A stretch of 32,706 nucleotides of DNA from Opitutaceae bacterium. Lineage in GTDB: Bacteria > Verrucomicrobiota > Verrucomicrobiia > Opitutales > Opitutaceae. The notes beneath the pieces are model-generated. The model was not told the DNA's origin and did not search any database. It saw only the letters and a program-made list of their open reading frames with translations. The position numbers and the translations under genes were made by a program. Shown piece by piece: positions 13,160-31,173 of this stretch. The stretch is taken from assembly GCA_005792355.1 (NCBI GenBank), contig SXSC01000020.1:1-32706 (forward strand), written 5' to 3'. The first letter of the stretch is position 1; every line of letters starts with the position of its first letter.

Positions 13160-14896
13160 ATGGCCGGAATGAGTTTCCCCTTCTCGCGTCTGCCACCGTC
13201 CCGGCCGGTACTTCCCGCAATCCTCGCGCCTGCGATCGCTCGAAGCTTCGTCCTGTTTCTGGCTTGCACACTTTCCCTGTCCTCACTCCCGGCCGCTCTT
13301 CCCTCCGACGTCGGCCCGCAGTCTCTCGCGGTCGATCTCGCGCGCTATGCCCTCGTGCGTCACGTCGACGCTCAGCGCGGCAACGACGTGTCCGGCGACG
13401 GTTCGCGCGAAAAACCCTGGGCCTCCCTGCCGCATGCGCTCGAACACGTCGGCGCGCCCACCGCCGGCTCGCGCGCGGCCCTGCTCGTCGCGGCCGGCCG
13501 CTATCTTCAACCCACCCTCTTGCTGAAATCGCACGTCGATCTCTACGGCGGCTTTGCCCCGGAAGCCGGTTTTGGCGGGCCGCGTGATGTCCACGCCCAC
13601 GCGACCATGCTCGACGGCGCCGAGGCGCAACGCATCGCGTTCGGGGCCGACGACACCCGGGTTGATGGTTTTCATTTTGTGCGCGGGCGCGTCCGCGGCA
13701 AGGGCGCCGCGCTGTTGTGCGACGGGGTCTCGCCAACGATTGCGAACTGCCTCTTCACGCAGAACCGCACGCTGATCCCGCAGCCATGGGCACCGGCCCA
13801 GTTGCACGAGACCGCCCACGATGGCGGCGCCATGTTTGTCACCAACGGCGCCGCGCCGCGGATCGAACACTGTTATTTCTACGACAACACCACCGAATGC
13901 GGCCGCGGCGCGGCGATCGCGGCCGACCGCCGCGCGGCCCCCCGGATCATCGCGAGCGTCTTCGCCCACAACCGCAGCGGTCTCGACGACCCCTTGCGCT
14001 CCAGCGATGGCGGCGCCATTTCCTTCTTCGATTGGTGCGGCGGCGAAGTGCGCGGGTGCGTCATCTCGGCGAATGTGTCCTTGGCCCGCAACGACGCCGG
14101 GGGACTCTTCCTCGCGCTGTGGTCCGCGCCGGTCATCGCCGACAACGTTTTCACGGCGAACAACGGCGGTGACGACGCCGGGGCGCTCTTCATCGGAGGG
14201 CAGGAGCATCGCTATGACGCGCCCCTCGACGCCTACCCGCCGACGGAAAAATTCCACGTGCTCGTCGAACGCAACGTCTTTGTCGGCAACACCAACACGG
14301 CGAAAAACTCCGGCGCGATGCGGGTGACGATGGAGTCGCGCGCCACGTTTCGCGACAACGTGATCACCGAGAACCAGGGCGGTTTTTACCTGCAACGATC
14401 GGAGATTGTCGCTGAGCGCAACACGGTGTGGCAGGACTGGCGTTTCGTGGAAGACAAGCCGTCGCTCGGCCCGAGCCGGCTCAGCGGCAATATCCTCAAG
14501 GGCCCGCTCGGCGGAAAAATCGAGGCGCGGGCGACGCTCGCCCGCAACATGGCGGAACCGGTCGCCGGCGGGAGCGACACCGTGACGGTGGCGAATGTGT
14601 TCGAGAACGATGGCGCGACCGGTGCGATCACCGGTCTGCGTTTCGACCCCACGACGTTGACGACCGTTGTTACGGCCGCCGCCGACCTACCGCAACCGGC
14701 GCTGGCCGGCCGGCTGATCGGCTTGAGTCAGGGGAAAAATGCGCAATGGCGCGTGATTCAGCGGACGACCGCTCGCGACATTGTCGTATGGGGCCGGCTT
14801 GAACCGGAGACGAATGCGGCCACAGAGTTCACCGTGCTCCGCACCTTTACCCTGAAACCGGGCGCCCCCGCCGGGATCGGCGCACGGGTGCGGTAA
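13160..14896 (+). CDS. Secreted right-handed parallel beta-helix protein
   Basis: The 578-residue product carries a signal peptide with hydrophobic core SFVLFLACTLSLSSLPAA and cleavage near residue 46. The mature part opens with VRHVDAQRGNDVSGDGSREKPWASLPHALE, split as HVDAQRGNDVSGDGS then KPWASLPHAL, the DUF1565-like entry to a beta-helix. Repeated rungs follow, for example GAALLCDGVSPTIANCLFTQ, GGAMFVTNGAAPRIEHCYFY, GGLFLALWSAPVIADNVFTA and SGAMRVTMESRATFRDNVIT. Such folds bind or cleave polysaccharides (pectate lyase-like) but no catalytic set is recognised here, so the activity is open. Start choice is weak: ATGs at 13094, 13160 and 13169 are all in frame. The frame extends further upstream to 12740, but that crosses a repeat and the divergent gene. 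Confidence 0.78.
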   Translation: MAGMSFPFSRLPPSRPVLPAILAPAIARSFVLFLACTLSLSSLPAALPSDVGPQSLAVDLARYALVRHVDAQRGNDVSGDGSREKPWASLPHALEHVGAPTAGSRAALLVAAGRYLQPTLLLKSHVDLYGGFAPEAGFGGPRDVHAHATMLDGAEAQRIAFGADDTRVDGFHFVRGRVRGKGAALLCDGVSPTIANCLFTQNRTLIPQPWAPAQLHETAHDGGAMFVTNGAAPRIEHCYFYDNTTECGRGAAIAADRRAAPRIIASVFAHNRSGLDDPLRSSDGGAISFFDWCGGEVRGCVISANVSLARNDAGGLFLALWSAPVIADNVFTANNGGDDAGALFIGGQEHRYDAPLDAYPPTEKFHVLVERNVFVGNTNTAKNSGAMRVTMESRATFRDNVITENQGGFYLQRSEIVAERNTVWQDWRFVEDKPSLGPSRLSGNILKGPLGGKIEARATLARNMAEPVAGGSDTVTVANVFENDGATGAITGLRFDPTTLTTVVTAAADLPQPALAGRLIGLSQGKNAQWRVIQRTTARDIVVWGRLEPETNAATEFTVLRTFTLKPGAPAGIGARVR

Positions 14897-14908: not shown

Positions 14909-16075
14909 ATGAAAAACCTATTCTCGCCGAAAGCTGATCCTTGGAGGCGGGGTGCCCCCACCCCGCGGTCTGCCGCTGCACTTCGCCCACAAATCCAATC
15001 GGACAAATGCAGTTCAGGGAGTGCGGATCGAAGGAGGGGCGGTTTCCAACCGCCCAAGACCGGGTCGTCGACCGAAATTCGGCGGTTGGGAAACCGCCGC
15101 TCCCGCGAGGTGCGGGCACCCCGCCTCCAGCAAATCTTAACCCTCCTGCTCCTCGGTGCCGTCTCACTCTCCGCCGCCGATTTCAAGCCCAAGCACGTCA
15201 ACAAGGCCATCGAGCTCCTCGCGGCCGGCCAGCCCGTGTATTATGACTACGGCCGCGGCGGAGCCGAGGAAGGCCGGGAGGCGGCAAAAACCTGGGCGGA
15301 CGTCCTGATGTACGACCTGGAGGGCGCGGCGCTCGATTTCACGCGCCTCCGTGCGTTCATGAAAGCGCTCGCCGACGCCGGCCCCACCGCGAGCGGGCAC
15401 CGCACCCCGGCGGTGATCGTGACCCTCCCGCTCTACGGGCTCGATGCCGACACCGTGCGCGCCAACCACTGGATGATCCAGCAGGCGCTGGCGTGCGGCA
15501 TTCACGGGCTGCACATCTGTCACGCGCGCAATCCCGAGGCGGTTGCGATGTTCATCCGCGCGGCGCGGTATGAGATTCACCGGCAGGCGGTCGGCCAGGG
15601 CCTGGCGGATGGGTTGCGGATGTTCGGCGCCCACGAGTTCGCCTCCGGCATCTGGGGCGTGACGCCAAAAAATTACTACGGTCTCGCCGACGTCTGGCCG
15701 CTCAATCCAAAGGGTGAACTCATCATCGGGGTGAAGATTGAGGACCAGGTGGGGCTGCCACACACGGAGAAAATCGTGCGGGTGCCCGGGGTGATTTTTG
15801 CCGAGTGGGGACCGCGGGACACGAGCTATGCGAACGGGTTCCTCGACGTCGCCTTCGACTACGGCCGCAAGCCCGGCGTGGTCGAGCCGCCGCCGCTCAA
15901 GGCCGCCGCGGATCGCGTGATCGCCGCGAGCAAGGCGGCGAAGGTTTTCGTCCTCGACAACGCGCGCACGGAGTCGGTCGTGCCGCAAATTGACGCCGGG
16001 ATCATGATCATCGCCGGCGGCCTCAAGGAGGTCGCGGACCTCGGCCGGAAACACACCGGGCGGAAGATGCCGTGA
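14909..16075 (+). CDS. Exported HpcH/HpaI aldolase-fold protein with repeat inserted in its leader
   Basis: This 388-residue protein belongs to the HpcH/HpaI (2-keto-3-deoxy acid aldolase) superfamily. Putative metal ligands are E278 (VKIEDQVGL) and D304 (AEWGPRDTS). They are 26 residues apart, as in HpcH (E149/D175) and the rhamnonate-pathway enzyme RhmA (E153/D179). The region matching the catalytic D-x-x-H (D42/H45 in HpcH) reads D136-L-E-G139, so the His is absent, and a counterpart of HpcH R70 is not obvious. The signal-peptide core ILTLLLLGAVSLSAA lies at about residues 76-90, preceded by some 60 residues translated from a REPIN-like element (14942-15129). Without the element the start would read MKNLFSPKAD joined to QQILTLLLLG. 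It may be a non-aldolase relative or a periplasmic lyase. It starts 12 bases after the beta-helix stop. Confidence 0.75.
   Translation: MKNLFSPKADPWRRGAPTPRSAAALRPQIQSDKCSSGSADRRRGGFQPPKTGSSTEIRRLGNRRSREVRAPRLQQILTLLLLGAVSLSAADFKPKHVNKAIELLAAGQPVYYDYGRGGAEEGREAAKTWADVLMYDLEGAALDFTRLRAFMKALADAGPTASGHRTPAVIVTLPLYGLDADTVRANHWMIQQALACGIHGLHICHARNPEAVAMFIRAARYEIHRQAVGQGLADGLRMFGAHEFASGIWGVTPKNYYGLADVWPLNPKGELIIGVKIEDQVGLPHTEKIVRVPGVIFAEWGPRDTSYANGFLDVAFDYGRKPGVVEPPPLKAAADRVIAASKAAKVFVLDNARTESVVPQIDAGIMIIAGGLKEVADLGRKHTGRKMP
14942..15129. repeat. REPIN-like element, family A, 188 bp, containing a family B unit
   Basis: The outer ends are inverted repeats (TGGAGGCGGGGTGCCC followed by CACC, one internal mismatch), the same as the element at 2769-2888. 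Nested inside at 15033-15103 is a family B double hairpin with stems GGCGGTT/AACCGCC. The whole unit is open in the frame of the aldolase-like gene. I see no target-site duplication. Confidence 0.7.
15033..15103. repeat. REPIN-like double hairpin, family B
   Basis: Layout: GGAGGGGCGGTTTCCAACCGCC-like first hairpin (stem GCGGTT/AACCGC), a 26-base spacer, and a second hairpin GGCGGTTGGGAAACCGCC closing with GCTCC. The spacer is alignable with that of the copy at 17881-17953. Confidence 0.65.
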
Positions 16076-16252: not shown

Positions 16253-17815
16253 ATGTCCCTCCATTTCATCGACCTCGTCGTCATCGCCATCTACTTCGCA
16301 GTGATCGCCGGCATCGGCTTCTGGGCCACGCGCGGCAAGAAAACCTCCGAACAGTACTTCGTGGCCGGACGCAGCATCCCGATGTGGGCCGTCGCGTTCA
16401 CCATCATGGCGACGATTATCAGCACGGGAACCTTTGTCGGCCATCCGGGTACCGCCTACCAAAAGGGCCTGATCCTCCTCGTCCCCCACCTGCTGGTGCC
16501 TTTCGTGCTGCTGGCCGTCGCCAAGGTCGTGGTGCCGTTTTACCGGCGCGTCGTGCGGATGAGCGCCTACGAATACATCGGCCAGCGCTTCGGCCTCGGC
16601 GGGCGCTTCTACACGTCCTTCGGCTTTCTCGCGGATCGGATCTTCGATCTCGGCGTCACGCTGGTCACCACCGCGCTGGCGATCAACGTGCTCACCGGCT
16701 GGGATCTCCGCGTCGTGATTCTCGGCGTGGGCCTGTTTACCATTTTCTACACGATGGTGGGAGGCATGGAGGCGGTGGTCTGGACCGATGTGGTACAGGG
16801 CGTGATCCTGATGGTCGGCGGAGTGTTTGTGCTCGGCCGCCTGATGTTCGCCCCGGAGGCCGGCGCGCCATTCGCCGTCGTGGCCGAGACTTGGCGCGCG
16901 GGCAAACTCACCCTGGGTTCATGGGATCTCTCGCTTGCCACGTTCACCGATCCAAAACTGACCACCACGTGGCTGTTTTGCCTCGCGTACGCCGTGCAAT
17001 GGACGCGCCGCTACGCCACCGATCAGCACATCGTGCAGCGGTACCTGGTCGCAAAATCCGACGAGGCGGCGAGCAAGGCCGCGTTTTGGAGCGCGCTCCT
17101 GTGTGTGCCGGTCTTTGTCGTGTTCATGTTCGCGGGCGCCTGCCTCGCCGGGTTTTTTGCGCTCGCGCCGGTGCCGCCTCCGCCGGTGCCCGACAGCGCC
17201 ATGCCGTATTTTCTCGCCCACTTCATGCCGGCGGGGCTGCTCGGCCTGGTGGTCGCCGCGATTCTGGCCGCCGCGATGTCCACCGTCAGTGCGGACCTGA
17301 GCAGCGTGGGCACGGTGCTGACGACGGACTATTTTCTGCATTTCTACCCCAACGCCTCGGATCGCGCGCGGCTCCTCTGCGGCCGCAGCATGATCGCCAT
17401 CGGCGGCGTGCTCACGGTCGTCGCCGCCTGGCTGCTCCTGCCCGAAAAAGATTCCACGCCCCTGATGGAACGCGTCATCATGATCGCGTCGATCCTCTCC
17501 GGCGGCACGCTCGGGCTTTTTTGCCTCGGCTTTCTCACCCGCAGCGCAACGCGCGAGGGCTGCTACATCGGAATCGCGTGCTGCGCCGCGTTCACCGCGT
17601 GGGCCATCCTCACCGAGCCACGCAATCGCGCGCTCGATCTGGGGTTCAATTTTCCGCTCAACCCGATCCTCATCGGGATCTGCAGTCACGCGGTGCTGTT
17701 CGGCACCGGCTGGATCGCGAGTCGCATCATGGGCGGCTTCCGGCCCGACGACGTCGACCGGCTGACTTACTTCGGACTGAAAAAGTACGCCAACACGACC
17801 GCGCCGCGGGTATGA
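16253..17815 (+). CDS. Sodium:solute symporter (SSS family)
   Basis: The 520-residue polytopic protein has about 13 membrane segments and the SSS signature features. These are an N-terminal FIDLVVIAIYFAVIAGIGFW helix, then TSEQYFVAGRSIPMWAVAFT and MATIISTGTFVGHPGTAY, which contribute to the substrate and sodium sites. YTMVGGMEAVVWTDVVQGVI and LAAAMSTVSADLSSVGTVLT are strongly typical. It imports a sugar or organic acid with Na+ across the inner membrane; the substrate cannot be read from sequence. It follows the exported aldolase-like and beta-helix genes on the same strand, so it may take up the small product they release. The start ATG at 16253 immediately precedes the first helix. Confidence 0.88.
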   Translation: MSLHFIDLVVIAIYFAVIAGIGFWATRGKKTSEQYFVAGRSIPMWAVAFTIMATIISTGTFVGHPGTAYQKGLILLVPHLLVPFVLLAVAKVVVPFYRRVVRMSAYEYIGQRFGLGGRFYTSFGFLADRIFDLGVTLVTTALAINVLTGWDLRVVILGVGLFTIFYTMVGGMEAVVWTDVVQGVILMVGGVFVLGRLMFAPEAGAPFAVVAETWRAGKLTLGSWDLSLATFTDPKLTTTWLFCLAYAVQWTRRYATDQHIVQRYLVAKSDEAASKAAFWSALLCVPVFVVFMFAGACLAGFFALAPVPPPPVPDSAMPYFLAHFMPAGLLGLVVAAILAAAMSTVSADLSSVGTVLTTDYFLHFYPNASDRARLLCGRSMIAIGGVLTVVAAWLLLPEKDSTPLMERVIMIASILSGGTLGLFCLGFLTRSATREGCYIGIACCAAFTAWAILTEPRNRALDLGFNFPLNPILIGICSHAVLFGTGWIASRIMGGFRPDDVDRLTYFGLKKYANTTAPRV

Positions 17816-17880: not shown

Positions 17881-17953
17881 CGGAACGGCGGTTTCCCAAC
17901 CGCCGAAGAACCGTCGGCCGACCGCATTTGGGCGGTTGGGAAACCGCCCCTCC
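17881..17953. repeat. REPIN-like double hairpin, family B
   Basis: A first hairpin GGCGGTTTCCCAACCGCC and a second GGCGGTTGGGAAACCGCC flank a 26-base spacer. The right edge closes with CCCCTCC. It occupies the gap between the symporter and the sulfatase and could also act as a transcription or mRNA-stability barrier. Confidence 0.65.
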
Positions 17954-18043: not shown

Positions 18044-19399
18044 ATGGCTTCCGCCGCGCCCAACATCCTGCTCGTCATCGCCGACGATTTTGGCGCGTAC
18101 CAACTGGGCTGCACCAGTCCCGGCGGCGCGGGGTTTTTCCGGACGCCGTGCCTCGATCGTTTCGCGGCCGAAGGCGTCCGTTTCGCCCGGGCGTACGCGA
18201 CGGCACCCGTCTGTTCGCCCGCCCGCGCGAGTCTCTACACCGGCCTGCACCCGGCCCGCCTGCACCTGACCGACTTCATCCCCGGGAGTGGCGTCACCAA
18301 TCCGGCCCTGCTCACGCCACCGTGGCAGTGCGGCCTGCCGGTCGCCGCCGTCACCCTCGGCGACGCCCTGAAGGCGCTCGGTTACGCGACGGCTCATTTT
18401 GGGAAATGGCATCTCGCGCCCGACTATCACTACACCCCCGGCCGGCCGATGGATCCGGAGTCGCAGGGGTTCGACGAGGTCTTCGTCACGCGCAAGCCGT
18501 CAGCGGACGCGGATCCGGAGGGTGATCCGCACCACATTGATCGGCTCACGGACCGCACCATCGAGTTTTGCACGCGCGCCCGGCCCACGGCCCAGCCCTT
18601 TTTTTGCGTGCTGGCGCACAACGCGGTGCATCGCCCCGAACTCGCTCCCGCCGCCCTCGCCGCGAAATACGCCACCCATCCCGCCGCCGATCCCGAGGTC
18701 AACCGGCCCGTATTTGCCGCGATGGTCGAGCTGCTGGACGCCGCCATGGGCCGGCTCCTCGACGCTTTGCACCGCGCCGGGCGCGATCGGGACACCCTCG
18801 TGGTGTTTACCGCCGACCACGGCGCCATGGGCGCGAGCGAACGCCGGAAGCCGCTGCGCGGCGCCAAGGCCGATCTCTACGAAGGCGGCCTGCGGGTGCC
18901 GCTGCTTCTGCGTTGGCCCGGACGCATCGCGCCGGGGCAGGTCCGCGACGCGCTGGTCAGTGGTGCGGATCTTTTTCCCACATTGCTCACCGCCGCTGGA
19001 GCGACGCCCGCGACGGCACTCGACGGCGTGAATCTCTGGCCGGTGATTGGCGACGTCTCCGCCCCGGCGCCGCACGACGCGCTGCACTGGCACTATCCCC
19101 ATTATCACCACCTCGGAGTTGGACCCTCCGGGTCGATCCGCGTGGGTGAGCACAAGCTGATCGAATGGTTTGGCCCGACTCCCCGGCTGGAGCTGTTCGA
19201 TCTCGGCGCCGATCCCGGTGAAGCACGCAACCTCGCCGCCATCGAGCCGGGCCGGCGCGACGCGTTGCGCCGACGCCTGCACGCCTGGCAAGTCGAAGTC
19301 GGCGCGCAAGCGATGACTCCCAATCCCGGGTACGATTCCGCCGCACCGACTCGCTTGCACCCGCCGGCGGGTGACGCCATTCCGGGCAAAGATTCATGA
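18044..19399 (+). CDS. Sulfatase without signal peptide
   Basis: This 451-residue formylglycine-type sulfatase has its catalytic C57 in C-S-P-A-R-A-S-L-Y-T-G. The protein begins MASAAPNILLVIADDFGAYQ, so the metal-site strand starts at residue 6 and there is no room for a signal peptide; it is probably cytoplasmic. FGKWHLAPDYHY, TLVVFTADHGAMGASE and YEGGLRVPLLLRWPG are family stretches. It is the first gene of a long plus-strand operon and overlaps the alcohol dehydrogenase by four bases (ATGA). Working inside the cell, it would act on a small imported sulfated sugar or acid rather than on polymer. The three sulfatases in this window have different C-x-[PA]-x-R motifs. Confidence 0.88.
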   Translation: MASAAPNILLVIADDFGAYQLGCTSPGGAGFFRTPCLDRFAAEGVRFARAYATAPVCSPARASLYTGLHPARLHLTDFIPGSGVTNPALLTPPWQCGLPVAAVTLGDALKALGYATAHFGKWHLAPDYHYTPGRPMDPESQGFDEVFVTRKPSADADPEGDPHHIDRLTDRTIEFCTRARPTAQPFFCVLAHNAVHRPELAPAALAAKYATHPAADPEVNRPVFAAMVELLDAAMGRLLDALHRAGRDRDTLVVFTADHGAMGASERRKPLRGAKADLYEGGLRVPLLLRWPGRIAPGQVRDALVSGADLFPTLLTAAGATPATALDGVNLWPVIGDVSAPAPHDALHWHYPHYHHLGVGPSGSIRVGEHKLIEWFGPTPRLELFDLGADPGEARNLAAIEPGRRDALRRRLHAWQVEVGAQAMTPNPGYDSAAPTRLHPPAGDAIPGKDS

Positions 19400-20541
19400 A
19401 CACCGTCGTCCTTCAACAACCACGCCGCCTGCTCTTCGGCACCGATTGTCTGCAACGCAGCGCCGAGGAATTCGCGCTGGCGGGCCGCCACCGGCTCTTC
19501 GTTGTCACCAGTCCGCAGGTCGCCGCCGCGCTGCCCGGTGTCTTCGTGCCATGGCGCGCGGCGGGGCTGGCGGTTGAGGTCTGCGAACTCGTCGACCGCG
19601 AGCCGGAAATTGCGCTGTTCGAAAAAGTCCTCGCCGCCGCGCGCACCTTCGCGCCCGATTGCATCGTCGGCCTGGGCGGGGGCAGTCCGCTCGATGTCGC
19701 CAAGCTCGTCGCCGCCCTGCTCGATGGCCGGCAGCAGGTCCGCGAGGTGTTTGGCATCGGTCTCCTGCGCGGGCGCAGCACCCATCTCGTTTGCATTCCG
19801 ACGACCGCCGGCACGGGCGCCGACGTCTCCCCCAACGCCATTCTCCTCGACGAAGCCGAGCGTCTGAAAAAGGGCGTGGTCAGCCCGCACCTCGTACCCG
19901 ATCTCGCCATCTGCGATCCGGCGTTGACCGTCACGATGCCGCCGGCCGTGACCGCCGCCACCGGCATCGATGCGCTCGTGCATTGCATGGAGGCCTACGC
20001 CAACAAATTCGCGCACCCGACCGTCGACGTTTATGCGCTCGAAGGTGTACGCCGCATCGGCCGCTCAATTTTCGCTGCAGTGAAGAACGGTGCCGACCGA
20101 TCCGCCCGCGCCGACGTGATGCTGGGCGCCCTCTACGGCGGGCTCTGCCTCGGACCGGTCAACACTGCCGCCGTGCACGCCCTCTCGTATCCCCTCGGCG
20201 GCGAGTACCGCGTGCCTCACGGTGTCGCCAACTCGCTCCTGATGCCACACGTGTTCCGCTTCAACCTCCCCGCGATGCCCGAGCGTTACGCCGAGATTGC
20301 CCTCGCCCTCGGTGTCGCCCCCGCGGCCACACCGCTCGCCACCGCAGAGGCGGGCCTGGGGCGGTTGACCGGGCTCTCGCTCGCGTGCGGCATTCCGCAG
20401 CGCCTGCGCGATGTGAAGATTCCGGAGGCCGATCTCCCGCGCCTCGCGCAGGAGTCGATGAAAGTCACCCGGCTGCTGAAAAACAATCCGCGCGAAGTCA
20501 CCGCCGCGGACGCGCTGGCGATTTACCGGGCGGCGTACTAA
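19396..20541 (+). CDS. Iron-dependent alcohol dehydrogenase
   Basis: This 381-residue group III (Fe2+) dehydrogenase has the N-terminal NAD(P) domain motif GLGGGSPLDVAKLVAALL and the phosphate-binding PTTAGTGADVSPNAIL. The metal ligands are D192 and H196 (GIDALVHCMEAY), H261 (AVHALSYPLGG) and H275 (YRVPHGVAN). These enzymes interconvert alcohols and aldehydes or ketones, as FucO does for lactaldehyde, and some act on hydroxy acids. Translation is coupled to the sulfatase (4-base overlap), and one base separates its stop from the pdxA2 start. This suggests a step between desulfation and the four-carbon acid steps, but the substrate is unknown. Confidence 0.88.
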   Translation: MNTVVLQQPRRLLFGTDCLQRSAEEFALAGRHRLFVVTSPQVAAALPGVFVPWRAAGLAVEVCELVDREPEIALFEKVLAAARTFAPDCIVGLGGGSPLDVAKLVAALLDGRQQVREVFGIGLLRGRSTHLVCIPTTAGTGADVSPNAILLDEAERLKKGVVSPHLVPDLAICDPALTVTMPPAVTAATGIDALVHCMEAYANKFAHPTVDVYALEGVRRIGRSIFAAVKNGADRSARADVMLGALYGGLCLGPVNTAAVHALSYPLGGEYRVPHGVANSLLMPHVFRFNLPAMPERYAEIALALGVAPAATPLATAEAGLGRLTGLSLACGIPQRLRDVKIPEADLPRLAQESMKVTRLLKNNPREVTAADALAIYRAAY

Positions 20542-20542
20542 G

Positions 20543-21559
20543 ATGACATCCCCCATCAAACCGATCCTCGCCGTCACCCTCGGTGACGCCACCGGCACCG
20601 GGCCGGAGTTGATCACGAAGGCGTTGGTCGACGCGGAGGTGCGGGCGGTCTGCCGACCCGTCGTCGTCGGTGACGCGGCGGTGGTCCGGGCCGCCCTCGC
20701 GATCACGCGAGTGCCGGCGACCGTCCGTGCGATCCAAGACATGAGCGGAATCGCCGGCGATCCCGCCGTCATCGACGTGATCGATCTCGCCAACGTCGAT
20801 CTCGCCCGGCTCGAACGCGGCAAGATCAGCGCGGCGACGGGCCGCGCGGCCTACGAGGCGATCAAGCGGGCGGTCGAGCTCACCCTCGCCGGAGACGCGC
20901 ACGCGGTCGTCACGTCCGCAATCAACAAGGCGGCGTTGCACGCGGCGGGTTTTCTCTACGACGGCCACACCGAGTTGCTCGCCGAGCTCTGCGGCAAACC
21001 GAAGGTGACGATGATGCTGGTCGCGGGAAAACTCCGCATCTGCCACGTGAGCACGCATGTGTCGCTGGCGCAGGCGATCGCGCGCGTGCGCCCGGAGCGA
21101 ATTTTGCAGGTGGTGCAGCTCGCGCACGACGGGGTGCGGCAACTCGGGGTCGAGCGGCCGCATCTCGCGCTGGCCGGACTGAATCCGCACGCCGGCGAGG
21201 GCGGGCTCTTTGGCACCGAGGAGATCGAGTTCATCGCCCCCGCGGTGGAGGAGGCGAAGCGCCGCGGCTTCCGGGTGAGCGGGCCCTACGCCGGCGACAC
21301 GGTTTTTTTCCGCACGCTGTCGGGCGAGTTCGACTGCGCGATCGCGATGTATCACGATCAAGGACACGTCGCCGCCAAGATGCTCGGCATCTGGCAGGGC
21401 GTGAACGTGACCCTCGGCCTGCCCATCATCCGCACCTCCGTCGAGCACGGCACGGATTTCGCCAACGCCGGCCAAGGCACCGGCGATCCGCGCAGCCTGG
21501 TGCAGGCGCTGAAGCTGGCGGCGGCCATGGCGGGGAACCGGGGGAACCCCAAACTATGA
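20543..21559 (+). CDS. pdxA2: PdxA2-type 4-phosphate dehydrogenase (D-threonate/D-erythronate 4-phosphate)
   Basis: The 338-residue protein is of the PdxA family. The divalent-metal histidines are H172 (HVSTHVSL), H216 (GLNPHAGEGG) and H271 (MYHDQGHVAAK), matching H166, H211 and H266 of E. coli PdxA. YDGHTELLAELC and TSVEHGTDFANAGQGT are also typical. True PdxA serves vitamin B6 synthesis; the PdxA2 branch oxidises D-threonate or D-erythronate 4-phosphate to a keto acid that loses CO2 to give dihydroxyacetone phosphate. I favour PdxA2 because a DUF1537 kinase, its usual partner, ends the same operon (27587-28705). Its stop overlaps the start of the next gene as ATGA. Confidence 0.85.
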   Translation: MTSPIKPILAVTLGDATGTGPELITKALVDAEVRAVCRPVVVGDAAVVRAALAITRVPATVRAIQDMSGIAGDPAVIDVIDLANVDLARLERGKISAATGRAAYEAIKRAVELTLAGDAHAVVTSAINKAALHAAGFLYDGHTELLAELCGKPKVTMMLVAGKLRICHVSTHVSLAQAIARVRPERILQVVQLAHDGVRQLGVERPHLALAGLNPHAGEGGLFGTEEIEFIAPAVEEAKRRGFRVSGPYAGDTVFFRTLSGEFDCAIAMYHDQGHVAAKMLGIWQGVNVTLGLPIIRTSVEHGTDFANAGQGTGDPRSLVQALKLAAAMAGNRGNPKL

Positions 21560-24261
21560 TGGGCACAAAAAGGGCATCGAAAAGAATCATTCGGAGAGCG
21601 CCGCTTCATCGGCGCCGCGAATGGAAAAATGGCTGCGACGAAGCGCAGCCCTCCGAAACATATGCGTCGCCCAGACCTTTTTCGACGCTCTCTCAAGGAA
21701 ACCCTGTCGGCAAATCCCACCGCGGCCACTGGATACGTCCTCTTCTCGGCGTCTTGATGTGGCCGTTCCTAGGTTCCGCCCGCGCCGACACCGTCGCCCT
21801 CTGGCTCTTCGACGAGCAGGCCGGCATCTACCCGAGCTCCGTCCTCAACGACGCCGGGCCCGCCAGCCATTTCCTCATCCTCGGGCGCGGCGCGGAAATC
21901 GTGCCCGGAAAATTCGGCAACGCGCTGCGCGTCATCACGCCCCCGCCGCTGGCGATCACCGCCCGCAGCGCGGGCTCCGATGCGGACAGCGGGGCCAGCG
22001 CCGTGCGCTTCGGTCTGCGGGCGCCCGCGCCCATCGCCGGCCGCACCCAGCCGCCCCTGCTCTGGGCCAACGCCCATTTCGCCGCACTCACCACCCGCGG
22101 AGACGTGCACCTCCGCCGCGCACCGTTCGCCAACGTCACTGACTCAAAACTCAATCTTGGCGCCGGCGACTGGACGCTCGAAGGCTGGTTCCAGTTTGCG
22201 CGCGATGCGCAAACAGAAGGGGTGGTTTTTGAAATTGGAGCGGGGCCGCGCGGCGAAAACGAACTCGTGACGCGGTTCAGCGTCCTGCCGACGGAAAATG
22301 CGTTTGCGCTGACGCACCTTTCGGCGGCGGCGTCCGGAGCGGTGGCCAAGCGCGTGGAATTCCCGAATCCCGCGGGCCCGCCGCCAGGGAGCGCGAGCAT
22401 CGAGACCGCGACGTTGCCCGTGGGTGACGGCCAGCTGCCGCGCGAATCGTGGTGCCATGTTGCGCTGGTGCATTCGGCGGCGGCGGGCGAGTTGCGTCTT
22501 TTCGTCGATGGAAAAAACCGGGCCGTGGCGCGGCTGAAGATGGTCGCGCTGCCCCGCGGCGACGAAGCCTATGTCTCGGTGGGCCGCGACGGCCGCTGGG
22601 GGCGCGCGTTGCCCGGGGCGATCGATGAGCTGCGCGTGAGCGACGTGGCGGTCTACCGGGCCGATTTTACGCCGCCCGCGAGTTTTTCCCGGCTGCACAA
22701 CGGCAGCCGCCCCAGCGCGCCGCCCGTGGCGGGCCCGCCCCTGCTGTTTGGCCAGGAAACACCGCGCGCCGCACTCGTCGATCTCGGTTCGCGCCGGCAT
22801 CTTTTCCTCGACGCCGCGTTGCTGGCCACCAGCGAGAAACTCGTCTTCACGGCGCATCCGGCCCGCGTGGCCGAACCGGTGATCGAGGGCGGCGGTTGGA
22901 TTTCGGTGGTCGACGCCGGACCGGAGGACATCCGGATCTACGCCAACGGGCCCGACAACAGCCTCGCCGTTTTCGTTTCGAAAGATGGCGTGCATTTCAC
23001 CGCGCCGGATCTCGGCCGCGGGGAATTTCGCGGATGGAAGAATATCGTCGTCACCGATTCCGCCTCCGTCGGCACGGTGTTCCTCGATCCGAACGGCCCG
23101 CCGGACGAGCGCTGGAAAATTGTCAGCGGGCTGCGCAGCCGCGGCGGGATCTTTGTCTACACCTCGGCCGACGGCTGGGCGTGGCGGCGCCATGAGCATG
23201 CCTCGCTGCCCTTCTGGGCCGGTTCGGCGGTGAACGTGTTCTACGACGACCAGCGGCGGCGCTACGTGATTCACAATCGCACCGATTACTACCGCACCGA
23301 GGGCGGCAGCACCAACCGCAAGTCGCTGCTGACCGAGGTGCCCGACCTGCTGCAGCCGTGGCCGTTCGCCCCGGTGACGGCGGAGCTGACCCGCGCCGCC
23401 ACCGCTCGCGGTGTCCGCACGCATGCGGATCAACTCGATCCGTGGTGGCTCGACAACGGCCCGCTCGCCCCGGGTGGCTTTGGGCTCGAGTACCCGGTGG
23501 CGTTCGAGCCGGACCCACGCCTCGATCCCCTGGCGACCGACATCTATAACACCCGGGCGCAGAAATACCCGTGGGCCGCGGATGCCTACGTGGCGTTTCC
23601 GCTGTTCTATTTTCACTACCACCGCGACGGTCCGCCCCAGCGGCAGGTCCTCGGGCACCCGGAGGAAGAGCGCGGCAGCGGCCTGGTGGAAACGCAGCTC
23701 GCGGTCAGCCGGGATGGGCTGGCGTGGCAACGCCACCCGCGCCCGACGTATCTGGGTATTGGTGACGAAAACGGTTACCCGATCCGGCGCTCCTACATCG
23801 GCAGCGGGCTGGTGCGCCGCGGCCGCCAGCTCTGGCAGTATTCCTACACGCGCTCGTCGTATCACGATGCCTGGACCAGGCCGGCGCCGGCGCCGGATGT
23901 GATTCACCGGCTCGTGCAGCGCGTGGATGGCTTCGTGAGCCTCGATGCGCCCTACACGGGCGGCACGTTCACCACCAAAGCCCTGCGCTTCGCCGGCAAC
24001 CGGCTCGTGCTCAACGTCGACACCGACGCCGCCGGCTATGCGCAATTCGGTTTTGTCGATGAGCGCGGGGCGCCGGTCCCGGGTTTCTCGATCGACGAGT
24101 GCGTCTATGTGAACGGCGACGAGATCGACTACGAGGTCGAGTGGCTGGCCAAGGATGGCCGGCCGACCAAGGATGTGTCCGCGTTGGCGGGCAAGCCCGT
24201 GCAAGTGGTGGCGCGGCTGCGCGGGACGAGTTTGTACGCGCTGCAGTTTACGTCGCGATGA
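21556..24261 (+). CDS. Secreted LamG plus beta-propeller-like protein, copy 1
   Basis: This protein of 901 residues has no family name I recognise. The signal-peptide core LLGVLMWPFLGSARA has cleavage near residue 77. Residues of about 80-370 form a LamG/concanavalin-like domain: TVALWLFDEQAGIYPSS, LNLGAGDWTLEGWFQF, ELRLFVDGKNRAVARLK and GAIDELRVSDVAVYRADFTP. After RRHLFLDAALLA the middle (about 400-800) resembles GH32/GH43-like five-bladed propellers, with VFVSKDGVHF, FLDPNGPPDERWKIVSG and VNVFYDDQRRRYVIHNRTDY. A C-terminal beta-sandwich ends in DECVYVNGDEIDYEVEW and SLYALQF. Glycan binding or hydrolysis is inferred only from these folds. The ATG overlaps the pdxA2 stop; the resulting long leader includes a REPIN-like element. 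A paralogue lies at 25092-27590. Confidence 0.78.
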   Translation: MMGTKRASKRIIRRAPLHRRREWKNGCDEAQPSETYASPRPFSTLSQGNPVGKSHRGHWIRPLLGVLMWPFLGSARADTVALWLFDEQAGIYPSSVLNDAGPASHFLILGRGAEIVPGKFGNALRVITPPPLAITARSAGSDADSGASAVRFGLRAPAPIAGRTQPPLLWANAHFAALTTRGDVHLRRAPFANVTDSKLNLGAGDWTLEGWFQFARDAQTEGVVFEIGAGPRGENELVTRFSVLPTENAFALTHLSAAASGAVAKRVEFPNPAGPPPGSASIETATLPVGDGQLPRESWCHVALVHSAAAGELRLFVDGKNRAVARLKMVALPRGDEAYVSVGRDGRWGRALPGAIDELRVSDVAVYRADFTPPASFSRLHNGSRPSAPPVAGPPLLFGQETPRAALVDLGSRRHLFLDAALLATSEKLVFTAHPARVAEPVIEGGGWISVVDAGPEDIRIYANGPDNSLAVFVSKDGVHFTAPDLGRGEFRGWKNIVVTDSASVGTVFLDPNGPPDERWKIVSGLRSRGGIFVYTSADGWAWRRHEHASLPFWAGSAVNVFYDDQRRRYVIHNRTDYYRTEGGSTNRKSLLTEVPDLLQPWPFAPVTAELTRAATARGVRTHADQLDPWWLDNGPLAPGGFGLEYPVAFEPDPRLDPLATDIYNTRAQKYPWAADAYVAFPLFYFHYHRDGPPQRQVLGHPEEERGSGLVETQLAVSRDGLAWQRHPRPTYLGIGDENGYPIRRSYIGSGLVRRGRQLWQYSYTRSSYHDAWTRPAPAPDVIHRLVQRVDGFVSLDAPYTGGTFTTKALRFAGNRLVLNVDTDAAGYAQFGFVDERGAPVPGFSIDECVYVNGDEIDYEVEWLAKDGRPTKDVSALAGKPVQVVARLRGTSLYALQFTSR
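21592..21655. repeat. REPIN-like double hairpin inside a leader sequence
   Basis: CGGAG leads into hairpin GCGCCG-CTTCAT-CGGCGC, then an AT-richer spacer, then hairpin GGCTGCG-ACGAAG-CGCAGCC, closing with CTCCG. The stems differ from other copies in the window but the layout is the same. It lies within the first 35 codons of the copy 1 gene. Confidence 0.6.
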
Positions 24262-24360
24262 AAACCGGCCGTGGCGCCGTCACCCGTCCGATCAAACCGG
24301 GCGCACGGCCGCGGTCGTTCAACCCAATTCCCTGATCCCGGGTGACAATCTACGGCGCAA

Positions 24361-24389
24361 TTGACAAAATTATCATGGGAAAGTAGAAA
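24361..24389 (+). promoter_or_regulatory. Possible vapBC promoter
   Basis: TTGACA at 24361-24366, a 17-base spacer and TAGAAA at 24384-24389 form a weak sigma-70-like promoter in an AT-rich patch just before the antitoxin start (24395). The start would be nearly leaderless if this is correct, so it is tentative. Confidence 0.35.
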
Positions 24390-24394
24390 AAACC

Positions 24395-24637
24395 ATGAAA
24401 GTGACTGTCGATATTCCGGATTCTGACCTCGAAGAAGTATGCGCATACACTGGCGAACCCAAGAAAGGCCCGGCCATCCTCAAGCTCGTGTCCGAGGTGC
24501 TCCAGTTAAAGCGACGCGAGACGCTCGCGAACAAATTCATCACCGGAGAATGGGGGACGAAATTATCCGGCATTGATTCCGCTCGAACCGCCGATCGCAA
24601 ATCGGCCCGACTCCGCGCCCAGGCCTGGCAAACCTGA
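24395..24637 (+). CDS. vapB: VapB-type antitoxin
   Basis: This 80-residue protein opens MKVTVDIPDSDLEEVCAYTG, the short beta-strand plus helix of VapB/DUF2191-like antitoxins, which bind DNA as dimers and cover the toxin active site with their C-terminus. The C-terminal half is basic and alanine-rich (ARTADRKSARLRAQAWQ), consistent with a toxin-wrapping tail. Its stop overlaps the toxin ATG by one base, the usual antitoxin-first coupling. It lies 133 bases after the large copy 1 gene. Confidence 0.75.
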   Translation: MKVTVDIPDSDLEEVCAYTGEPKKGPAILKLVSEVLQLKRRETLANKFITGEWGTKLSGIDSARTADRKSARLRAQAWQT

Positions 24638-25041
24638 TGTCCACGCTGCTCGACACCAGCCTCTGGATTGACTTCACGCGGGCGCGCTCCCCGCAGAAGC
24701 TGAAACGATTCATCGCGCCGTATCTCCTCGATCCCGAAGCCCGCCTGGCCGAGCCAGTCACCTTCGAGGTGTTGCGGCACGCCACACCCGAGGAGTGCCG
24801 ACAACTTGCGCAGCAGTTTCAGACGTTTCCCCTGCTCGAGACGCCGGCCGATCTTTGGACCAGCGCGGCCGCGCTGGGGCAAGTCTGCCGGAAATCAGGC
24901 ATTGCAGCTGGTTCGATTGATCTGCTGATCGCCAGCCTGGTCATGCACCATCAAGCCACGCTCGTCACCTTTGACCGCGATTTTCAGGCGATCTCCGCCG
25001 TGTCTGACCTCAAGCTGAAACTCCTGGAGCGGCCAGTCTGA
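24637..25041 (+). CDS. vapC: VapC-type PIN-domain ribonuclease toxin
   Basis: This 134-residue PIN-domain protein carries the four acidic metal-binding positions: D6 (LLDTSLWIDF), E44 (VTFEVLRH), D95 (GSIDLLIASL) and D113 (LVTFDRDFQ). VapC toxins are Mg2+-dependent endoribonucleases that cut tRNA or rRNA when released from VapB. The pair sits inside a catabolic operon, between two paralogous secreted-protein genes, with about 50 bases to the next start. That placement suggests insertion or retention as a small selfish cassette. Confidence 0.88.
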   Translation: MSTLLDTSLWIDFTRARSPQKLKRFIAPYLLDPEARLAEPVTFEVLRHATPEECRQLAQQFQTFPLLETPADLWTSAAALGQVCRKSGIAAGSIDLLIASLVMHHQATLVTFDRDFQAISAVSDLKLKLLERPV

Positions 25042-25091
25042 GCAGCCGCTCCAGATTTCTCCAGCCTGACCATGGCCGCGCGCCAAATTCG

Positions 25092-27590
25092 GTGATTGTT
25101 CCCGCAGCGGAATGTGAAGTGAAAACCTTTTCCTCCCTCAAACCAACCATCCGGCGGTTTCTTCGGCGCATGCTGGTGCCAGCGTTGGGCACAGTTTGCA
25201 TCTGGTCCTCAGCGGCGCAGCCCGCGACCGAAGCGATCACCATCGCGCAGTGGACGTTTGATGAGCCGTCGTGGCTCTATCCCAGTCACGTCATGGATAC
25301 GACGGCGGGAATCGATGCTCCCCTGGTGTTGGGGCTCGGTGGCCGGCTGGTGGCCGGTCGTCACGGCAACGCCCTGTCGGCCGAGCCGTATCCCGCCATC
25401 GTCATGCCGACCGAGGGCCAGCGCACGGCGTTCCTTGGCCGACTGCCGGTGCCGCCGGGTCGCACGCAGGAACCGTTGACCTGGCCCAACGCGCAGTTTT
25501 GCGCGCTGATGACCGGAGGTGAACGGCACCTGCGGAAAGAAGTGTCGTTCGCCAATCCGACCGCCGGCGACCTCAACCTCGGCGACTTCGACTGGACCGT
25601 GGAGTTCTGGTTGCAGCTCGCGCCAGCGGCAGCGCCAACCGGCGTCATCTTTGAAATCGGCACCGGACCGCGGGGTGAAAACGACGTGGTGACCCGACTC
25701 GCGCTGGACACAACGGCGGGAGAATTCGTTTTCCTCAACCAGCCATCGGGCACGACGCGGCGACTGCCCATCCCGCGGGCCGCTCTCGCGGGCAGCGGGT
25801 GGCACCACCATGCCGTGGTTTACGATTCCGTCGCGGCGGAGCTCCGGCTTTTCGTCGACGGGCAGCCGCAGGCGCCGATCAAGTCGGTGCGCTTGCAACG
25901 GTTGCCGCCGGGCGAGGAGGCCTACCTCTCCCTCGGCCGCGATGGCGGGTGGCGCCACCCGATGCCCGGCGCGATCGATGAGCTCCGGTTTTCCCGCGGA
26001 TGCCGCTATCGCGGCGGGTTCAGCCCGCCCGCGAGCTTCGTGCCACCGTCGCCGCCGATCAAACTGGCCCGGAGCGAATCCCTGCGCTTTCCGTCGGACG
26101 CCCCGCGAACCGGAGTGGTGGCGCTTGGCTCGGAGAAGCACGTCTTCATTGACGCCGCGTTGCTGGAGCGCAGCGACGGCCTGACCTTTCAAGTGCATCC
26201 GCCACGGGAAGTGGAGCGCGTCATGGAAGACATCGACGGGCAGTTTCGCAAACATCTCACGGTGATCGAAGACGAGCACGGGTTGATCCGACTCTACAAT
26301 CCGGGGCCGAGCGACTACCTGATGGTCCATGTGTCGCGTGACGGCGTGCATTTCGAGGCCCCCGACACCGGCCTCCACCACCAGAACCGACGCAACATCG
26401 TCATTGCCGAGGATGCCCCGATGGGCCGGCCGATCATCGATCCCAACGGCCCGCCGGAAACGCGCTGGAAGTTGGTGAGTGGCCACGAAGGTCGCGGCAT
26501 CTATCTCTACACCTCACCGGATGGCTGGAAATGGACGCGCCAGCGGACGGCGGTCCTCTCCTTGCGCCTGGGGTCGCAATCGAGTTTTTTCTATGACGAC
26601 CAGCGCGGAGTGTATGTCGGGTATCATCGGACGGGCTTCCCGCGGCTGCCGAGCGGCGGCACGCAGCGCGAGTTCGTGATGTCGGAGACCTCGGACCTCC
26701 ACCGACCGTGGCCGATTACGCCGCTGACGCAGGCCCAGTTGCTGGAGATTGCAAAGACGCGCCCACTGCGCGCGCCGCAACCGTGGTGGTTGGACAACGG
26801 CCCGCTGACGCCCGGCGACGTCGGGATCGAGATGCCGACCGCCTTCGCCCCCGATTTTTCCACGGATCCCCCGGGCAGCGGCGTCTACATCCCGAAGGCC
26901 ACCAAGTATCCGTGGGCGCCGGACACGTATGTGGCGTTTCCCGGGATGTATTTCGGCTACGAGGATCCGGAGCCGCGCACGCGGGCGACATTGTATGATC
27001 GCGCCCGCGGTCTCGGCTCTGGAACGATGGAAGCGCACCTCGCCGTCAGCCGCGACGGGAAGAAGTGGACCCGTTTTCCCCGACCGGCGTACGTGCCGAT
27101 GGGCCGGTACCGCGGCCGCGATTTGCATCAGATTTATCCCGCCGAGGGCCTCATTCGACGCGGCGACGAAATCTGGCAGTATTTTTATGGCCAGGAGGAA
27201 TATCATTCGCCGCTCCGCCGCATCCCCGCGGGCAACGGCGTTTACCGGATGGTGCAGCGGCTCGACGGATTCGTGTCGGCCGACGCGCCCTACGAACGCG
27301 AAATCGAGATCGTCACGCGACCGCTGACCTTCACGGGATCGCGCCTGACGCTGAACATCGACACCGGGGCGCTCGGTTTTGCGCAGATCGGGTTGCGCGA
27401 CCGCCAGGGCAAGGCCATCCCCGGCTTTGCGGTGGACGAGTGTGTCTACGTGAACGTCAACACCGTGGCGCATCCGGTGGAGTGGATCGGGCGGGGCGGG
27501 GATGTCTCCGCCCTGGCCGGTCAAACCGTGCAGATCGTGCTGCGCCTGCGCGGCGCCTCCCTGTATGCGCTGCAGTTCACGGAGCGATGA
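25092..27590 (+). CDS. Secreted LamG plus beta-propeller-like protein, copy 2
   Basis: The longest reading gives 832 residues from a GTG at 25092. A GTG at 25119 or ATG at 25170 is also possible, and the signal core MLVPALGTVCIWSSAA follows the latter. The order matches copy 1: a LamG-like domain (TIAQWTFDEPSWLYPSH, LNLGDFDWTVEFWLQL, ELRLFVDGQPQAPIKSVR, GAIDELRFSRGCRYRGGF), a propeller-like middle (EKHVFIDAALLERSDGLTF, VHVSRDGVHFEAPDTG, IIDPNGPPETRWKLVSG, SSFFYDDQRGVYVGYH) and a C-terminal sandwich (DECVYVNVNT, SLYALQFTER). Shared words such as KYPWA-D-YVAFP and VQR-DGFVS-DAPY show common descent. The catalytic residues are unknown. Its stop overlaps the kinase start as ATGA. Confidence 0.78.
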   Translation: MIVPAAECEVKTFSSLKPTIRRFLRRMLVPALGTVCIWSSAAQPATEAITIAQWTFDEPSWLYPSHVMDTTAGIDAPLVLGLGGRLVAGRHGNALSAEPYPAIVMPTEGQRTAFLGRLPVPPGRTQEPLTWPNAQFCALMTGGERHLRKEVSFANPTAGDLNLGDFDWTVEFWLQLAPAAAPTGVIFEIGTGPRGENDVVTRLALDTTAGEFVFLNQPSGTTRRLPIPRAALAGSGWHHHAVVYDSVAAELRLFVDGQPQAPIKSVRLQRLPPGEEAYLSLGRDGGWRHPMPGAIDELRFSRGCRYRGGFSPPASFVPPSPPIKLARSESLRFPSDAPRTGVVALGSEKHVFIDAALLERSDGLTFQVHPPREVERVMEDIDGQFRKHLTVIEDEHGLIRLYNPGPSDYLMVHVSRDGVHFEAPDTGLHHQNRRNIVIAEDAPMGRPIIDPNGPPETRWKLVSGHEGRGIYLYTSPDGWKWTRQRTAVLSLRLGSQSSFFYDDQRGVYVGYHRTGFPRLPSGGTQREFVMSETSDLHRPWPITPLTQAQLLEIAKTRPLRAPQPWWLDNGPLTPGDVGIEMPTAFAPDFSTDPPGSGVYIPKATKYPWAPDTYVAFPGMYFGYEDPEPRTRATLYDRARGLGSGTMEAHLAVSRDGKKWTRFPRPAYVPMGRYRGRDLHQIYPAEGLIRRGDEIWQYFYGQEEYHSPLRRIPAGNGVYRMVQRLDGFVSADAPYEREIEIVTRPLTFTGSRLTLNIDTGALGFAQIGLRDRQGKAIPGFAVDECVYVNVNTVAHPVEWIGRGGDVSALAGQTVQIVLRLRGASLYALQFTER

Positions 27591-28705
27591 GCGATTTTTT
27601 TATCGCCGATGATCTGAGCGGAGCGCTCGATGCGGCGGCGGCGTTCCATCACGCCGGGCAACGGGCAAGGATCGTGCTCACCGCCGGCAGTTGGACCGCC
27701 TCCGCGGGGGAAGTCGTGGGTGTCACCACTGAAACGCGCAATGCGCCGCCGGCGGTCGCCGCGGCGGCGGTCGAACGGGCCATCGCGCATGGCCGGGCGC
27801 AGGGCGCGCGGCTGGTCTACAAGAAAATCGACTCGACCCTGCGCGGCCCGGTGGCGGCCGAGCTGGCCGCGCTCGCCCGCCAGCTGCCGGGCGCCCGCAT
27901 CCTGTTCACGCCCGCGAATCCCGGCGTGGGGCGAACCGTGCGCGCCGGCGTGCTGCTGGTGCGCGGCGTGCCGGTGAGCGAGACGGAGTTTGCCCGCGAC
28001 CCGGTGAGCCCGGTGACCGAGAGCAATCTGTATCGACTCCTCGGTGACGCGGGGGGCGCGGGGCTGGTGGTGGCGGATGCCGCCAGCGAGTCGGATCTGG
28101 CGGCCGCCGTCGCGCGCATGGTGGGCGAAGGCGGCGCGTGGGTCGCGGTGGGATCCGGCGCGCTGGCCCGGCCGGTGGCGGCACTCGGCGGGCCCGGCCA
28201 GCCGTCCGCCACGCACGCGGAAAATCCGTCACTTCCCGCCGGTCCGATCTTGATGCTCTGTGGCAGTGCGCACGCGTGCAACCGCGGGCAAGCGGCCGTA
28301 CTGGCCCGCGAGCGTGGCATTCCCGTGCATGAGTTTCGAATCACGGATCCGGCTCCGGCGGTGGCGGCGGTCATCGCCAGCCTGCGGGCGGGCGGCGGCG
28401 CGAGCCTGTTGGTCGAGGCAACGCGGAGCGCCAGCACGACCGTCCTGCGAACGCTGACGGCCGCGGCGACCGAGATCATCGCAGCGGCCGGAACCGCGCG
28501 CATTTTTGCGACGGGCGGAGAAACGGCCTTCGCCCTGTGCGGCGCGCTCGGGATTCAAACCCTGCAGTTCGGCGCTGAAATCGAGTCCGGGCTGAGTCTC
28601 TCGCAGGCCACGACGGATCGCGGCCCGCTGCGGCTCGCGATCAAAAACGGAGGCTTCGGCAACGCCGACACCTGGGTGCGCGCGTGGGACGGCTTGAACG
28701 CGTAG
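27587..28705 (+). CDS. Four-carbon acid-sugar kinase, DUF1537 family
   Basis: The 372-residue protein begins MSDFFIADDLSGALDAAAAF; D8-D9-L-S-G-A is the family's substrate-site signature (usually DDLTGA). KKIDSTLRGPVAAEL and FTPANPGVGRTVRAGVLLV follow, and the C-terminal nucleotide-binding part holds ATGGETAFALCGALG and LAIKNGGFGNAD. DUF1537 kinases phosphorylate D-threonate, D-erythronate or L-threonate; the product is passed to a PdxA2-type dehydrogenase, encoded in the same operon. It is somewhat shorter than most members, which run over 400 residues. Which acid it prefers cannot be read. It is the last gene of the operon, facing a convergent SDR gene. Confidence 0.85.
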   Translation: MSDFFIADDLSGALDAAAAFHHAGQRARIVLTAGSWTASAGEVVGVTTETRNAPPAVAAAAVERAIAHGRAQGARLVYKKIDSTLRGPVAAELAALARQLPGARILFTPANPGVGRTVRAGVLLVRGVPVSETEFARDPVSPVTESNLYRLLGDAGGAGLVVADAASESDLAAAVARMVGEGGAWVAVGSGALARPVAALGGPGQPSATHAENPSLPAGPILMLCGSAHACNRGQAAVLARERGIPVHEFRITDPAPAVAAVIASLRAGGGASLLVEATRSASTTVLRTLTAAATEIIAAAGTARIFATGGETAFALCGALGIQTLQFGAEIESGLSLSQATTDRGPLRLAIKNGGFGNADTWVRAWDGLNA

Positions 28706-31143: not shown

Positions 31144-31173
31144 GGGGAAAGCCGGATTGAAACAACCATGGGT

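Follow-up and report, generated by a model that had tools for sequence, protein, structure and literature searches.

The GarL/GarR/GarK route handles 2-keto-3-deoxyglucarate with a pyruvate aldolase, a semialdehyde reductase and a kinase. In work by Zhang from 2016, a DUF1537 kinase and PdxA2 are said to form a tetronate pathway that leads to dihydroxyacetone phosphate (DHAP). Here we describe a gene set that shares parts of both, located in a window that is the entire 32.7-kb contig SXSC01000020.1 of the 8.4-Mb draft genome of an Opitutaceae bacterium (GCA_005792355.1). The set runs in the order beta-helix protein, HpcH-like protein, SSS-family symporter, sulfatase (SulfC), iron-containing alcohol dehydrogenase (Fe-ADH), PdxA2, two secreted LamG-propeller proteins (LamG1, LamG2) and DUF1537 kinase. 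These genes are identified at the family level, their kin are co-located across phyla, and a four-enzyme module of Fe-ADH, PdxA2, kinase and a DapA-family aldolase stands repeatedly next to genes of the glycoside hydrolase (GH) family GH143 type. We propose, with somewhat better than even confidence, that the set releases 3-deoxy-D-lyxo-hept-2-ulosaric acid (Dha) or a close, possibly sulfated, ulosaric acid, which is catabolized via D-threuronate and D-threonate to DHAP.

The tetronate pathway has in common with this locus a kinase and a PdxA2-type dehydrogenase leading to DHAP; here, unlike there, Fe-ADH precedes them, a pyruvate aldolase is found in relatives, and the genes are linked with a sulfatase and with secreted proteins that act on glycans. 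The logic of aldolase, reductase and kinase is that of GarL/GarR/GarK, whose diacid is one carbon shorter, whereas the reductase and kinase here belong to other families and a decarboxylating dehydrogenase follows. Release of Dha from the pectin component rhamnogalacturonan-II (RG-II) has been described for the GH143/GH142 system of Bacteroides thetaiotaomicron (PMC6811678, PMC7263609), and the portions of these papers available to us do not describe the fate of the free Dha. In ten stretches of Verrucomicrobiota DNA, the module has a GH143-like gene next to it. Unlike the B. thetaiotaomicron system, the window has LamG-propellers and no GH143; the only match of its genome to PF24067, the BT_1020-like propeller model, is a GH143-like gene on another contig (C318).

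The gene set recurs beside LamG-propeller genes in several phyla

An earlier note on this DNA had named the sulfatase, Fe-ADH, PdxA2, the kinase and the two LamG-propeller genes as one operon at 18044..28705. All six are present, all on the plus strand (Table 1); SulfC, Fe-ADH and PdxA2, and likewise LamG2 and the kinase, are joined by four-base overlaps or a 1-base gap, and the longest open reading frame (ORF) of the kinase overlaps LamG2. The limits given for the operon were too short and we rejected them: the set spans about 13.2-28.7 kb, with the upstream beta-helix, HpcH-like and SSS genes also belonging to it.

We scanned GTDB genomes with a 23-protein LamG-propeller alignment and obtained 71 loci, in which partner genes were counted by tblastn at 1e-10. 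PdxA2 and the kinase are both present in 21 of the 71, always on one strand and 28 to 5,047 bases apart, and Fe-ADH accompanies the two in 17; under a simple random-placement model about 1.2 PdxA neighbors would be expected by chance. The check by co-conservation that the earlier note had suggested thus came out in its favor. Individual counts were 36 for the beta-helix protein, 36 for the sulfatase (25 at 250 bits or more), 35 for the HpcH-like protein, 27 for SSS, 24 for PdxA2, 22 for the kinase, 19 for Fe-ADH, 24 for a galactonate-dehydratase-like enolase, 15 for DapA (12 by clustering), 8 for a TarD-like gene (5 at 300 bits or more), 4 for an aldehyde dehydrogenase and 7 for GH143-like genes (two overlapping, hence six independent genes); the sulfatase, DapA and TarD-like counts at 1e-10 partly include paralogues. 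Among loci of at least 17 kb (n = 46), PdxA2 occurs in 19, the kinase in 17 and Fe-ADH in 15. Not every locus counts as independent, since L031 and L086 share part of one contig and some genomes yield more than one locus. The same partners occur in loci of Verrucomicrobiota, Acidobacteriota, Ignavibacteriota, KSB1, Balneolota and Pseudomonadota. The gene set is real and recurs across phyla, and its four-carbon (C4) module is a common, not a constant, partner of LamG genes.

Two further families recur in these loci. A PhoD-like phosphatase (PF09423) is found in 19 of them (e.g. L050:2714-4603). The enolase, which carries a twin-arginine-like leader, is a recurrent neighbor of LamG and beta-helix genes in loci without PdxA2 and kinase (L042, L045, L048, L051 and others); such loci perhaps encode a second, periplasmic sugar-acid route.

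A DapA-family gene suggests Dha as the probable substrate

DapA-family enzymes split 2-keto-3-deoxy sugar acids into pyruvate and an aldehyde. A gene of this family is present in 12 of the 21 LamG loci that have both PdxA2 and the kinase, from Verrucomicrobiota, Ignavibacteriota, KSB1, Balneolota and Pseudomonadota (the L033 copy matches PF00701), and in 9 of the 12 it sits between Fe-ADH and PdxA2. With this gene in the cluster, the enzymes would act in the order aldolase, reductase, kinase, PdxA2, on a substrate that should be a seven-carbon 2-keto-3-deoxy diacid leaving a C4 acid. So far as we know, Dha is the natural compound that would fit this description.

By Fischer bookkeeping, cleavage of Dha between C3 and C4 gives D-threuronate, which yields D-threonate on reduction of its aldehyde and D-tartrate on oxidation. 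These predicted products match both the best model of the kinase and the TarD-like gene found by an aldehyde dehydrogenase. The best NCBIfam model of the kinase is D-threonate kinase (NF047819), at 132.9 bits against a cut-off of 450, which makes it a relative of that model and not an assigned member. The aldehyde dehydrogenase, whose L032 copy matches PF00171, adjoins the TarD-like gene in L032, L044 and L080, and the L032 TarD-like copy matches structures of Bll6730, which we take to be a D-tartrate dehydratase, full-length at 490 bits or more. Reductive and oxidative exits both fit the same D-threo intermediate. PdxA2 scores 266 bits with 6e85 (D-threonate 4-phosphate dehydrogenase), 194 with 1ps7 and 297 with 4jqp, labelled 4-hydroxythreonine-4-phosphate dehydrogenase (PdxA).

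The same module accompanies GH143-type genes

In the neighbor cluster found in 7 LamG loci, the L059 member matches PF24067 ('BT_1020-like, N-terminal beta propeller') and, over residues 29-576 of 1108, PDB entry 5mqr. 5mqr is BT_1020, of which PF24067 covers the propeller half and a GH142 domain makes up the rest (PMC7263609). GH143 is a B. thetaiotaomicron enzyme of two modules, which has one site acting as beta-L-arabinofuranosidase and, on a five-bladed propeller, another acting as Dha hydrolase (PMC6811678). We infer that the BT_1020/PF24067 protein and this two-module enzyme are one protein. The account by Ndeh from 2017 is said to agree.

We searched 387 Verrucomicrobiota genomes, drawn from a larger group, with PF24067, the window kinase and the DapA protein of L164. 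PF24067 matched in 39 genomes (32 over the cut-off) and the kinase in 23. Sixteen places in 13 genomes gave PF24067 matches above 140 bits, and all 16 surroundings were read with tblastn. Ten of them (L161-L165, L167-L171) hold GH143-like, PdxA2, kinase, DapA and Fe-ADH genes side by side on one strand, with the same gene order in nine (L170 differs) and, in eight, an SSS symporter 40-66% identical to that of the window. The ten operons span 7 genera of 3 families, three and two of them sharing a genus. A kinase is present in 12 of the 13 genomes with PF24067 above 140 bits, versus 11 of the 374 others; the p-values for this contrast, which ignore relatedness, and those of the random-placement model are too small because some of the operons share a genus. 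The L164 DapA finds its 11 best matches, among the 387 genomes, in the ten GH143-type operons and in G295, whose module has no GH143 or LamG match.

A tree of PdxA2 matches of at least 250 residues (38 rows; L177, with genes fragmented in the assembly, was left out) joins 16 LamG-type and 9 GH143-type verrucomicrobial proteins with support 100/99, and the window PdxA2 groups among rows from Opitutaceae and other Verrucomicrobiota. The nine GH143-type rows form a set that also takes in the LamG-type PdxA2 of L076 (97/96), with those of L033 and L039 next to it (84/73, weak); LamG-type rows from other phyla are joined by the GH143-type PdxA2 of L170 (97/83). The GH143 label requires three changes on this tree, so the module has been paired on more than one occasion with the two kinds of secreted propeller.

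LamG-propellers as candidate glycosidases

LamG1 is 48% identical to LamG2, and the LamG-propeller proteins have at least 566 relatives. In Pfam, PF13385 is the sole match of both, without a match to PF24067. In an AlphaFold2 model of LamG2 the propeller aligns with five-bladed GH families. The top Foldseek rows for the LamG-propeller model are the LamG-bearing sialidases NanB and NanC (GH33), which likewise combine a LamG-like domain with a propeller and act on a 2-keto-3-deoxy sugar, but whose whole-chain superposition is poor, with a template modelling (TM) score of about 0.2. BT_1020 entries are absent among the 50 structure matches listed for the LamG model, which excludes nothing, and a PDB sequence search with the LamG profile gave two weak rows (best 5hon), both over the LamG part. 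Fold, leader and operon position lead us to predict that the LamG-propellers are glycosidases.

Two structure alignments, of 23 and 14 sequences picked for spread, were used, and profiles were compared by hhalign with 16 of the available GH143-like proteins. The idea that the LamG-propellers belong to GH143 was rejected, since the hhalign probability was 7.5%. They would occupy the slot filled elsewhere by GH143, with a role like that of GH143; we draw this likeness mainly because the PdxA2 tree shows module swapping, the profiles showing no kinship.

Proposed pathway and alternatives

The fold, leaders and operon position of the beta-helix and LamG-propeller proteins suggest that these act outside the cytoplasm, opening up the glycan and setting the acid free. 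Uptake would then fall to the SSS symporter, and any sulfate on the acid would be taken off by the cytosolic sulfatase. A pyruvate aldolase would cut Dha at C3-C4 into pyruvate and D-threuronate, a step for which the DapA-family gene is the candidate in relatives, and a DapA paralogue or the HpcH-like protein in the window. Fe-ADH would then reduce D-threuronate to D-threonate, and, by what is known of their families, the DUF1537 kinase would phosphorylate the latter and PdxA2 would oxidize and decarboxylate the product to DHAP. Of the earlier outline, in which secreted proteins yield a C4 acid that the kinase and PdxA2 convert to DHAP, the co-location of kinase, PdxA2 and LamG held up, while 'sulfated' should be read as 'presumably sulfated'; where it had the secreted pair release a C4 acid or a precursor sugar, the DapA and GH143 operons now lead us to propose Dha as that precursor. 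A complete form of the route is conceivable and we put it forward tentatively, at less than an even chance: the LamG-propellers would be a new GH family that frees (sulfated) Dha from plant or algal walls, and D-threuronate would leave both reductively to DHAP and, through the aldehyde dehydrogenase and a D-tartrate dehydratase, oxidatively to oxaloacetate.

Several observations weigh against the Dha proposal. Neither the window nor the rest of its genome holds a DapA orthologue (best 33%), so that no pyruvate aldolase adjoins Fe-ADH, the kinase and PdxA2 there, and the near relatives L019, L073, L074, L078 and L079 also lack the module DapA. The cut would then have to be made by another DapA paralogue or by the HpcH-like protein. 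A possible source is a second cluster of the same genome (L216, G000:C415:10000-29900), with beta-helix and LamG-like matches, a galactonate-dehydratase-like gene and a DapA-family gene (25% identical). The HpcH-like protein has weak kinship to aldolases (Table 1), its L058 relative passes PF03328, and by hydropathy and eye it has a hydrophobic leader in many copies and seems exported; these leaders made us drop it as an ordinary cytosolic aldolase. In NCBIfam, scores stay below the cut-offs for the specific functions; PdxA2 clears just that of the general PdxA model (TIGR00557), and Fe-ADH clears none. The LamG-propellers are without detectable sequence kinship to GH143 by hhalign, and 46 of the 71 LamG loci have neither PdxA2 nor the kinase, some of them, from Acidobacteriota, retaining SSS, sulfatase and beta-helix. 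The module is missing from six of the 16 GH143-like places: L158, L159 (at a contig end), L160 (in the window's own genome), L166, L173 (short contig) and L172, which has a GH143-like gene, a SulfC-like match of 44%, a LamG match of 47% and a weak 43-bit kinase match. In G010, of the same genus, a 51% identical kinase lies among unrelated genes.

The sulfatase substrate is also unexplained. The gene encodes a type I sulfatase by its PF00884 match and C-x-P-x-R motif, and by hydropathy and eye the protein has no leader in the window, L019, L071, L073 and L078, and a leader or lipoprotein-like start in L041, L058, L063 and L076. RG-II counts Dha among its rare sugars, in a domain that PMC12168206 describes as shared by all plants; an RG-II review, in the part available, contains no word starting 'sulfat', and the literature consulted, some of it available only in part, yielded no sulfated Dha glycan. 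That the substrate is sulfated is presumed from the sulfatase gene. Available sections of PMC10762512 and PMC7693365 place Dha in prasinophyte scales and Tetraselmis walls, the latter with 54% 3-deoxy-D-manno-oct-2-ulosonic acid (Kdo), 17% Dha and 21% galacturonic acid (GalA) as cited in PMC7693365; these might be a source of sulfated Dha. The GH143-like gene of the window's genome lies among four sulfatase matches (L160, G000:C318:6500-25224), which hints at sulfated Dha glycans.

We weighed four other explanations. The substrate might be a sulfated hexose or deoxyhexose degraded through an aldonate dehydratase and a 2-keto-3-deoxy-aldonate aldolase, the kinase and PdxA2 serving another acid of the same glycan. 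The enolase, in 24 of the 71 LamG loci, a fumarylacetoacetate hydrolase (FAH)-family hydrolase in 5, and loci of the L042 type, which join the enolase with SSS, sulfatase and beta-helix without PdxA2 or kinase, speak for this; the enolase is nevertheless absent from the window and, as read, from the ten GH143-type modules, and its twin-arginine-like leader in many copies is unlike the cytosolic module, so we regard the explanation as unlikely. We consider it quite unlikely that the cytosolic genes consume free D-threonate or D-erythronate from outside, with another task for Fe-ADH and the glycan proteins as unrelated neighbors. L176, with kinase and PdxA2 and no glycosidase match, the lone kinase of G010 and the LamG loci without the module would agree with it, whereas both genes stand in 21 of the 71 loci and 10 of the 16 GH143-like places hold a module with an aldolase, needless for free threonate.

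In a variant of the Dha proposal, the HpcH-like protein would be the aldolase and act in the periplasm, so that Dha is split before it crosses the inner membrane and SSS imports the C4 product. The protein occurs in 35 of the 71 loci, has its leader in many of them, is present in the window, where DapA is absent, and passes PF03328 in L058; yet it co-occurs with DapA in L024, L025, L032, L033, L041, L058, L065 and L071 and is weakly related to characterized aldolases, and we hold this variant improbable. The association could also be a by-product of gene-dense sugar clusters with no common pathway, given that the data come from metagenome-assembled genomes (MAGs), several of them related, and that repeats and a toxin-antitoxin-like insert mark a disturbed locus. 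As the same partners recur in six phyla, Verrucomicrobiota to Pseudomonadota, and co-location is far above the simple chance model, we judge this very improbable indeed.

Features of the window

Table 1. Positions in the window of the genes of the set and of the elements inserted among them
Feature	Position	Strand	Remarks
Right-handed beta-helix protein, probably secreted	13163..14896	+	Start picked by eye; ORF opens at 12740
HpcH/HpaI-like protein, hydrophobic leader	14909..16075	+	NCBIfam HpaI 19.9 bits; PDB 4mf4 E 0.14 (weak)
SSS-family sodium:solute symporter	16253..17815	+	PF00474 166 bits
Sulfatase (SulfC), predicted cytosolic	18044..19399	+	PF00884 181 bits; C-S-P-A-R at residue 57
Iron-containing alcohol dehydrogenase, predicted D-threuronate reductase	19396..20541	+	PF00465/PF25137; adjoins DapA, kinase and PdxA2 in relatives
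PdxA2-type dehydrogenase, predicted 4-phospho-D-threonate dehydrogenase	20543..21559	+	PF04166
Genome-wide repeat between PdxA2 and LamG1	21556..21756	+	Right limit approximate
LamG1, secreted LamG-propeller	21757..24261	+	PF13385 51 bits; start uncertain
VapBC-like pair between the LamG genes, outside the pathway	24395..25041	+	PIN PF01850 40 bits at 24637-25041
LamG2, secreted LamG-propeller, predicted glycosidase	25092..27590	+	PF13385; mature gene start probably 25143 or later
DUF1537 kinase, predicted D-threonate kinase	27587..28705	+	PF07005 137 bits, PF17042 49 bits, both above cut-off

Repeat elements lie at 14942-15129, 17882-17953 and 21556-21756 in intergenic gaps, and one recurs at many genome sites. 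Because the first ~220 bases of the HpcH-like ORF are repeat, its true start is near 15130, and a reading of LamG1 from 21556 was rejected since that stretch is a repeat that falsely lengthens the ORF. The repeats and the inserted VapBC-like pair, whose 80-amino-acid partner has no Pfam match, mark the locus as disturbed. The relative L019 has the same genes without this pair, followed by a TonB-dependent receptor that the window lacks. An Rfam search of the window at gathering scores gave 0 matches, and a tRNA search led nowhere.

Beside the kinase, on the minus strand, a short-chain dehydrogenase/reductase (SDR) gene of the 3-hydroxybutyrate-dehydrogenase type overlaps a GntP-like permease gene (29042-31329); L037, L041 and L080 likewise have strong GntP genes. 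A DUF1552 (PF07586) gene at 31660-32706, minus strand, has its 5' end cut at the contig end, and to the eye the residues further upstream in its frame resemble the end of an insertion sequence (IS) transposase. A GH106 gene lies at 2914-5973. The second DUF1537 gene of the genome, on contig C172, has different neighbors.

Significance

A literature search whose reach left out most subscription papers found no account of the bacterial fate of freed Dha and no paper joining rhamnogalacturonan with threonate, kinase and sulfatase, and among papers retrieved with 'heptulosaric' and 'aldolase' nothing on Dha catabolism appears in titles or openings of abstracts; with that reach, the route may be in print elsewhere. 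The enzyme that releases Dha is already known, and the pathway proposed here, if true, would fill in the onward metabolism in bacteria. The proposal is testable with four soluble enzymes and one substrate, the products being pyruvate and DHAP. It also marks at least 566 LamG-propeller proteins as candidate glycosidases.

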